DNA from: Leptolyngbyaceae cyanobacterium JSC-12
GTDB lineage: Bacteria > Cyanobacteriota > Cyanobacteriia > Leptolyngbyales > Leptolyngbyaceae
Assembly (NCBI GenBank): GCA_000309945.1
Contig: CM001633.1
Span: forward strand, 1,572,723-1,636,722
Direction: 5' to 3'
Length of the DNA: 64,000 nucleotides
Part shown: positions 23,063 to 47,696 of the stretch, piece by piece
Position numbering within the stretch: position 1 is the first letter of the stretch
How the letters are laid out: every line of letters starts with the position of its first letter
Translations under genes and position numbers: made by a program
The notes under the pieces: model-generated
What the model was told of the DNA's origin: nothing
The model's database searches: none
The model's input: the letters and a program-made list of their open reading frames with translations, nothing else

Positions 23063-23500
23063 GGGAAGAGTAAGCGAGATGGTTGCGGGCTGCTAACCCC
23101 AGTCCGAGGAAAGTCCGGGCTTCCGAAAGACCAAACTTGCTGGCTAATCACCAGTGCGAGCGATCGCGAGGATAGTGCCACAGAAACATACCGCCCTCAG
23201 CACTGCAGATTTTGGATTGAGGATTTGAGATTCAACCATGAATCTCAAAATTCAACAATCAACAATCCCTGAGGGTAAGGGTGCAAAGGTGCGGTAAGAG
23301 CGCACCAGCAGCATCGAGAGGTGCTGGCTCGGTAAACCCCGGTTGGAAGCAAGGCAGAAGGAGCAACGGTTGGTCTTTTACCAGCTCCAGTAGGAGGCAA
23401 CTCCTGCGAGTCCGCTAGAGGTGTCTGGCAACAGCCATCCCAGACAGATAACCATCCCCCAATTGGGAGAACAGAACCCGGCTTATGTCTTGCTCTTCCC
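23063..23500 (+). ncRNA. rnpB: RNase P RNA (bacterial type A) with expanded helix
   Basis: This is the catalytic RNA of RNase P, which removes 5' leaders from tRNA precursors. Landmarks are the 5' region GAGGAAAGTCCGGGCTTCC, AGGGTGCAAAGGTGCGGTAAG, and the 3' strand AGAACCCGGCTTATG. The GGGAAGAGTAAG start pairs with CTTGCTCTTCCC at the end (helix P1), which sets the ends. Between CCCTCAG (23194-23200) and CTGAGGG (23269-23275), the place of helix P12, there is a 68-nt stretch. It contains a perfect 10-bp hairpin and resembles intergenic repeats of this genome. Ends are approximate by a few bases. Confidence 0.95.
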
Positions 23501-46761: not shown

Positions 46762-47379
46762 TCACTTTCCCTGAACTCCAGCAACAATGCCAAAGATGAT
46801 AAATAAAACGCCACCCAGCGCTGTTACAAGTCGTTCCGAAATGCGTCCAGCGACTAAGCGTCCAGCCAGAACCGCGATCGCTGCACAGGCAGCATGTCCC
46901 AGTGTTGCTCCAATTGCAACTCCCCAGGGATGATTCGATGCAGCCAGGGCTATTGTGGCAAATTGGGTGCGATCGCCCCATTCCGCAACAAAGGTCAGCG
47001 CAAAGGCTTGCAGCATGATTGAGTAATTTGCCCCAGGTCCAGAAGCTTGAAAATTCGCCTGTTCAACTGCTTCTTGCGCTTCTTCCAATTCATCACAGGC
47101 AGAATAGGCAGGCATACGGTAAGCGTCATATAGGAGTTTCAAGCCAAATCCAATGAACAGGGCAATTTCGGCATACCAAATGTAAGTTTTGGGGAGAAAG
47201 GCAGCTACCTGTCCCATTAAGACGGATAACAATGTCATCGCCGCTAAGGCCGCAATTACGCCTGCAAACACTAGGCGGCGAGAATGGCGCATCGCCAGAA
47301 TCATCGCAATACAGAATGTTTTATCGCCCAGTTCCGAAATCGTAATCAGCAATAAGCCTGCTGTAAAAGCTGTCAGCAT
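46762..47379 (-). CDS. mnx: UPF0016/GDT1 family manganese exporter
   Basis: The 205-residue membrane protein has six spans in two halves, each with the family motif: ELGDKTF (about 16-22) and EWGDRTQ (about 135-141). The acidic residues of these motifs bind the cation. In Synechocystis the homologue Mnx exports manganese from the cytoplasm to the thylakoid lumen or out of the cell, which prevents toxicity and supplies photosystem II. The leader upstream looks like a manganese riboswitch, which supports this substrate. AAGG precedes the ATG. The symbol is by orthology to Mnx. Confidence 0.88.
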   Translation of the reverse strand: MLTAFTAGLLLITISELGDKTFCIAMILAMRHSRRLVFAGVIAALAAMTLLSVLMGQVAAFLPKTYIWYAEIALFIGFGLKLLYDAYRMPAYSACDELEEAQEAVEQANFQASGPGANYSIMLQAFALTFVAEWGDRTQFATIALAASNHPWGVAIGATLGHAACAAIAVLAGRLVAGRISERLVTALGGVLFIIFGIVAGVQGK

Positions 47380-47464
47380 CCTTCAAGTCCTCAGAATCGG
47401 CAGTGAATATTCTGAGTGGCTTGACAAGTGCGATCGCCTCACCAAGCTCACCCAGAGTGAACTC

Positions 47465-47632
47465 AGTAAAGGTCTCGCTTGCAAGTAGCTATCAGCGTTG
47501 CCTTTCAGCAATCAACTGGTCATAGTTAATCGTCCTGGCAAATAGCTTGAAGCATCTTGTCATCTGAACCAGGTTCATCACCAGTATGTTGATTCAGATG
47601 GGCTGGCTGTGCCAGCAGCTACTCCCCTTCAA
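47465..47632 (-). promoter_or_regulatory. yybP-ykoY-type manganese riboswitch upstream of mnx
   Basis: Read on the minus strand, the leader begins GAAGGGGAGTAGCTGCTGGC, the strongly conserved 5' strand of the yybP-ykoY aptamer. It later contains GCGAGACCTTTACTGAG, the matching 3' strand in which GACC/CCTT close the junction. Two hairpins lie between them. These RNAs bind Mn2+ and often control UPF0016-type exporters, which is the gene that follows. The expression platform is probably between 47380 and 47465. A covariance search is needed for exact borders. Confidence 0.8.
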
Positions 47633-47641
47633 ACATTCTGC

Positions 47642-47647
47642 ATTATA
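47642..47647 (-). promoter_or_regulatory. -10 box (TATAAT) of the mnx leader
   Basis: A perfect TATAAT on the minus strand lies 9 bases before the start of the riboswitch-like aptamer, as expected if transcription begins at about 47634. No good -35 hexamer is seen at 17 bases, so an activator or a weak -35 may be involved. Confidence 0.55.
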
Positions 47648-47696
47648 CAGGGTTACTGCCAGAGTTTGATAGTAACGAGAAAATCCACCCATGCCC

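Follow-up and report, generated by a model that had tools for sequence, protein, structure and literature searches.

The leader of a GDT1/UPF0016 gene in the 64,000-nucleotide stretch of DNA from Leptolyngbyaceae cyanobacterium JSC-12 analysed here (the window) contains an aptamer of the Mn2+-responsive yybP-ykoY family, at 47634..47462 on the minus strand, between a TATAAT hexamer and the gene, and is probably a riboswitch by which Mn2+ turns on the synthesis of an Mnx-type manganese exporter. This interpretation, advanced in the initial annotation, is supported by the L1 and L3 sequences, by compensatory changes, by cross-recognition with Escherichia coli members and by the family of the downstream gene; direct sensing of Mn2+ and a link to photosystem II, which formed part of the same proposal, would follow by analogy with the families concerned. 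The element combines a known aptamer family with a lineage-specific expression platform.

The leader is approximately 260 nt long and lies 5' of the gene on the minus strand (Table 1). The gene product matches PF01169 in two stretches (157.9 bits), and its two repeats both carry the E-x-G-D-[KR]-[ST] motif, as ELGDKT and EWGDRT in the translation. A UPF0016 gene had been annotated downstream of the leader, and this match bears it out; the exporter role is suggested by sequence similarity, the gene belonging to the same family as Synechocystis Mnx, from which Mn2+ export and a location in the thylakoid or plasma membrane may be predicted. The TATAAT described ahead of the aptamer is likewise present, and the RNA would be expected to start about 7 nt downstream of it, although a promoter scan found no -35/-10 pair, and hence no -35 partner, at this hexamer. 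Among 105 distinct leaders holding GGAGTAG, a -10-like hexamer occurs at -24 to -20 relative to that motif in 86, and a perfect TATAAT falls inside a search window of -42 to -8 in 31, as against 15 of 525 random windows. Elsewhere in the window, an RNase P RNA of class A scores 240 bits at 23067-23500 (+) and has a long insert after model position 136.

Table 1. Features of the leader and its gene, in the order in which they are transcribed (window coordinates).
Feature	Position	Strand	Evidence
TATAAT -10 box	47642..47647	-	Sequence
P1 5' strand UGAAGG (switch helix; P1.1 in the literature)	47626..47631	-	RNAalifold of 32 leaders; R1 match
L1 5' side GGAGUA	47620..47625	-	Invariant in alignment A1
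P2 hairpin GCUGGC/GCCAGC	47602..47616	-	Three compensatory pairs; minimum free energy (MFE) fold
P3 arm with L3 (UCAACAUACUGG ... CCUGG)	47561..47600	-	Nine P3 pairs with compensatory changes
P4, variable arm	47482..47559	-	Single-sequence folds, MFE; no covariation shown
Aptamer 3' strand: AGC, L1 GAGA, P1 CCUUUA	47467..47479	-	Alignment, RNAalifold, R1 match
Relay strand A (aptamer 3' side and extension), partner B	47456..47474	-	Duplex tests, 62 representatives
Relay strand B (GGUGAGCUUGGUGAGG), partner A or C	47437..47452	-	Duplex tests, folds
Relay strand C (UCAAGCCACUCAGAAU), partner B or D	47409..47424	-	Duplex tests, folds
Relay strand D (AUUCUGAGGACUUGA)	47383..47397	-	C:D median z -3.2 against shuffles; paired in window MFE fold
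Two-repeat GDT1/UPF0016 gene, Mnx-like, 205 aa	46762..47379	-	Open reading frame; ATG at 47379

Both conserved strands of the yybP-ykoY aptamer that had been noted in the leader were located, GAAGGGGAGTAGC at 47630..47618 (-) and GCGAGACCTTTACTG at 47478..47464 (-). A default Rfam scan reported no riboswitch in the window, because the aptamer scores 26.7 bits against the RF00080 gathering score of 45 bits; the covariance search that the initial annotation had suggested as a check nevertheless returned a match when run permissively (47640..47510 (-), E 1.7e-5, in a 501-base search), albeit under the curated cut-off. According to its structure line the RF00080 model ends at the P4 helix, short of the GAGACC 3' strand, and the window alignment accordingly stops at 47510; the match to E. 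coli mntP likewise ends ahead of GAGACC. Of two E. coli control leaders, mntP scores 41.6 bits, also under gathering, and alx yields no listed match at E <= 1. As both members fail to reach it, the gathering score is treated as an annotation threshold rather than a defining one, the sub-threshold score of the window aptamer is not counter-evidence, and the reading of a low Rfam score as absence of the aptamer can be ruled out. Among 97 relatives, RF00080 matches at E <= 0.001 were obtained in 49, with scores of 22-43 bits, none reaching 45.

A second covariance model, R1, was built from an alignment of 32 cyanobacterial leaders only. It matches the window at 47634..47462 (-), with the 3' strand included, and the score of 122.2 bits is high by construction, since the window copy is among the 32 sequences. 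R1 also recognises both E. coli leaders, which lie outside its training set: mntP with 34.3 bits (E 1.1e-6) and alx with 22.6 bits (E 6.3e-4), the latter chiefly through the P1/L1 strands. That the likeness arose by chance, or that a conserved leader here serves another role, such as a protein-binding site or a small RNA, is exceedingly improbable; the Rfam score, being only sub-threshold, would permit it, but this cross-detection with E. coli members, the compensatory changes and the coupling to one gene family already disfavour it. The original observation of a yybP-ykoY-family aptamer is thereby confirmed, and a coherent group within a known riboswitch family is shown to lie hidden under the Rfam cut-off.

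The 32 leaders, the window copy among them, were cut at conserved motifs and aligned. RNAalifold predicted 26 pairs, 12 of which are altered at both positions in one or more sequences, comprising three compensatory pairs in P2 and nine in P3; P1 is predicted but nearly invariant. The resulting four-way junction of P1 to P4 is therefore backed by covariation in P2 and P3, while P4 comes from single-sequence folds only. The aptamer is 99-221 nt long across leaders, with P4 the chief source of variation. The P4 arms of two leaders (L014 and L017) contain seven-base tandem repeats, for instance CTGACTG in L014, as if this arm tolerates repeat insertions without breaking the aptamer.

The L1 (GGGGAGUAG / GAGACC) and L3 (CAACAUACU) sequences of the family are both present, and L3 together with L1 would be expected, by analogy with the roles described for these loops in the Mn2+ aptamer (PMC6754395, in part), to form the Mn2+ site. 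In the 105 distinct leaders holding GGAGTAG, AAGGGGAGTAGC was found in 98, a count favoured by the choice of those leaders for one of the motifs, and AGCGAGACCTT in 83. L3 reads TCAACATACTGG in 82 of them, TCAACATGCTGG in eight, TCAACACACTGG in eight and other variants in seven. This variation is what could be cited for the view that the aptamer fold has been kept for another divalent ion, or that the leader only tunes mRNA stability. Such a change of function is very unlikely, given that the L1 and L3 cores match those of E. coli mntP, that the gene family includes manganese exporters and that the known yybP-ykoY family is described as sensing Mn2+ (in the relevant part of PMC6754395).

The association with two-repeat GDT1 genes is close. 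R1 matched 64 places in 60 of the 97 relatives, all of which were fetched, and 63 of these precede a two-repeat GDT1 gene; none of the 64 precedes a single-repeat (Hmx-type) gene. The remaining place (L136:1201-1332, 33.7 bits) is a decayed orphan copy that no transporter gene follows. The similarity to the window protein extends over both repeats at all 166 GDT1 loci when pieces of a match are joined, an approach under which frameshifts are possible. In two riboswitch-preceded GDT1 genes (L127 and L053) the first repeat seems to contain a frameshift, and at another locus (L117:201-347) the riboswitch stands before a GDT1-like protein with ELPDKT in place of ELGDKT as its first motif. A second riboswitch copy in the genome of the window (L002, G000:C1:4318268-4318395), with an L3 of CAACATGC, precedes a second two-repeat GDT1 gene.

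Similarly, in a set of loci from named records collected by protein similarity, the aptamer precedes the gene in 23 of 23; these include Leptolyngbyaceae, Dolichospermum, Anabaena, Sphaerospermopsis and Aphanizomenon, several being metagenome assemblies, and at least three (L034, L051 and L054) seem common to this set and the R1-surveyed one. In a sample of the phylum, R1 found 65 places in 63 of 386 genomes, a lower bound given the coarser first look, and all but eight of the 65 were fetched. Three weak R1 matches were obtained outside the class, in high-GC genomes: one precedes a TerC gene (L150, PF03741), one a Na/Ca-exchanger gene (L170, PF01699) and one a gene that, as read, resembles the latter (L169).

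The element is patchily distributed. Both R1 and Rfam found no riboswitch before at least 13 two-repeat GDT1 genes in the 97 relatives, these loci having been fetched on purpose; two-repeat genes of this type were recorded at L137-L149, L177 and L178, of which the last two represent two genomes of a genus in which another member has the riboswitch. In four genomes of Synechocystis, the element was found in one (G178), two have the two-repeat gene without it (G106 and G167) and one has two GDT1 matches, both in short single-repeat frames (G163). The patchiness reflects repeated loss or gain.

Downstream of the aptamer, the cyanobacterial leaders share a set of four strands that could pair successively, A with B, B with C and C with D. 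Recurrent strand A, GACCUUCACURAGUUCAC, starts within the 3' strand of the aptamer itself and is followed by B, GUGAGCUUGGUGARG, C, CUCAUCAAGCUCAC, and D, GGAGCUUGAUGAG, which covers the Shine-Dalgarno region; in the window the Shine-Dalgarno sequence is likely GAGG at 47392..47389 (-), inside D. Strand C can pair with either B or D because B imitates D. The letters change jointly in many Nostocales, where B reads GUGUGGAGUUCAGUGAG and C CUCAUUGAUACUCCACAC.

These pairings were assessed on leaders drawn from 120 distinct GDT1 leaders, of which 13 were skipped (12 without an aptamer, and L116) and 107 kept; three more were taken out because the leader was long or the start uncertain, leaving 104, represented by 62 at less than 85% identity. 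Ten further aptamer-bearing GDT1 loci, whose protein lies outside the N-terminal pattern, were read by eye and left out. Across the 62 representatives, the mean duplex energy of A:B was -22.9, against -9.2 for shuffled strands and -21.2 for strands of other genomes; the corresponding values were -22.3, -12.3 and -19.6 for B:C, and -16.6, -9.2 and -13.0 for C:D. The leader's own duplex was better than the swapped mean in 48, 44 and 49 of the 62 for A:B, B:C and C:D respectively, and had a lower energy than every one of its 30 shuffles in 61, 47 and 35. The first A:B value is partly circular, because B was defined as the partner of A in a fold; when B was replaced by simply the 45 bases that follow A, the energies were -23.9 against -9.3 shuffled and -22.2 swapped, with the own duplex better in 47 of 62 and below all shuffles in 62 of 62. 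By contrast with these, the unused pairings were flat relative to shuffled strands, at -6.1 (-5.4) for A:C, -6.4 (-6.6) for A:D and -7.2 (-6.6) for B:D, the own pairing being better in 29, 26 and 30 of the 62. The A:B, B:C and C:D helices thus share strands and are shown to be maintained across cyanobacteria.

In the unconstrained full-length fold of the window leader, A:B and C:D are both paired (z -4.2), representing the OFF form. A simple two-state thermodynamic switch can be ruled out, as full-length equilibrium folds stay OFF when the P1-held part of A is masked: over 104 leaders the mean exposure of the Shine-Dalgarno sequence moved from 0.19 to 0.22, rising in 15, falling in two and staying the same in 87, and in shuffled controls under the same masking it moved from 0.30 to 0.32, rising in 51, falling in 30 and staying the same in 229 of 310. 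Switching would consequently have to be co-transcriptional. When the transcript was stopped just before the Shine-Dalgarno sequence, the average occupancy of B:C went up from 0.28 to 0.80 on masking A, compared with 0.04 to 0.35 for shuffled tails and 0.16 to 0.64 for swapped ones. Occupancies above 0.6 in the truncated and masked state were reached by 89% of real leaders (n=62), 8% of shuffled (n=248) and 58% of swapped (n=246), whereas a rise above 0.3 on masking occurred in 69%, 52% and 72% respectively; because the rise is similar in the controls it is not specific, and it is the strength of B:C that is. When the stop point was varied, the difference exceeded 0.3 in 60 of 104 leaders and the reverse occurred in 0 of 104, a result biased by the choice of the best end. 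In the truncated window leader, B:C is dominant with or without masking, at 0.90 in both, which counts against the proposed switch. A different ON helix, CUGAGU:ACUCAG, was considered and dropped because many relatives were seen by eye to have CUAAGU.

Since the equilibrium folds show no switch, a kinetic decision is proposed. Without Mn2+, A would pair with B, and C would be available to D, concealing the ribosome-binding site. When Mn2+ is bound, P1 of the aptamer would hold the first half of A, such that the last part of B is left as an open toehold; C could then invade B during RNA synthesis, leaving D open to the ribosome and permitting translation at high Mn2+. The decision would be kinetic and co-transcriptional, and taken before D is transcribed.

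The same Mn2+ aptamer could instead have a transcriptional output, with A:B acting as an intrinsic or Rho-linked terminator that Mn2+ prevents and C:D being secondary. A:B is indeed the strongest of the helices, 29 of the 104 leaders, and 14 of the 62 representatives, have four or more U residues after B, and a terminator-type precedent is described for Lactococcus lactis in part of PMC11087558, but such a U run is absent from 75 of the 104, that of the window included, and the maintenance of C:D at the start codon fits poorly with it. As a general account a terminator is unlikely, although the U runs mean that some lineages may use it. In the window leader itself an intrinsic terminator is ruled out, the scan finding none and there being no U tract.

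The nearest counterparts of the element are known RF00080 members (E. coli mntP and alx, and those of L. lactis and X. oryzae), which resemble the cyanobacterial leaders in their L1/L3 sequences, P1, P2 and P3 helices and P4 arm, in the reuse of the P1 3' strand in a competing hairpin and in the transporter genes downstream; the cyanobacterial aptamer differs in being followed by the conserved four-strand relay. The E. coli mntP leader shares UCAACAUACU in the P3/L3 arm, but precedes another gene family; in the account given in part of PMC11647493 it is translational, and is turned on by Mn2+ through uncovering of the ribosome-binding site. In L. lactis, the section of PMC11087558 on the ligand-free state has the 3' segment of P1.1 moving into a competing hairpin. 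The pairing of a yybP-ykoY element with a UPF0016/GDT1 gene is likewise found in Vibrio mneA (as excerpted from PMC13274385), although Vibrio is not a cyanobacterium, and UPF0016 genes under yybP-ykoY are reported outside cyanobacteria in 328 of 333 screened strains in part of PMC7380456.

Manganese-dependent control of a transporter in cyanobacteria is otherwise represented by ManS/ManR, which, unlike the leader, is protein-based and in Synechocystis acts as a repressor of the mntCAB importer operon (parts of PMC7020235 and PMC11649195). Passages of these papers call it the only identified transcriptional regulator (PMC7020235, 2019) and the only identified regulator (PMC11649195, 2024) of cyanobacterial manganese homeostasis. 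An excerpt of PMC11649195 also reports that the mnx transcript is unchanged under excess manganese in wild-type Synechocystis PCC 6803, a strain that may be with or without the element, and this is counted against the Mn-ON riboswitch reading. In the relevant portion of a 2007 metagenome survey, none of 11 yybP-ykoY matches was assigned to cyanobacteria, and the origin of seven was unknown (PMC2211319). A survey of cyanobacterial RNA motifs calls yybP-ykoY widely distributed in a passage that leaves open whether the carriers include cyanobacteria (PMC3766115), and the presence of the family in cyanobacteria may consequently already be tabulated. Among the best-ranked literature matches, in a search with most subscription journals outside its coverage, no title or abstract named a cyanobacterial manganese riboswitch. 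The more specific proposition, of an overlooked RNA sensor of manganese on the exporter side in cyanobacteria, operating as a kinetic strand-displacement relay such that Mnx would be made only at high cytosolic manganese, is put forward tentatively, at a little under an even chance; if correct, it would have been overlooked because the sensor scores below the Rfam cut-off.

The matter bears directly on cyanobacterial physiology. Photosystem II imposes a high demand for manganese, an excess of which is toxic to cyanobacterial cells. An RNA sensor before the exporter gene, if the interpretation is true, would represent a cytosolic manganese sensor for cyanobacteria, the sensing of which could be tested with a reporter and which would provide a natural manganese-responsive part.
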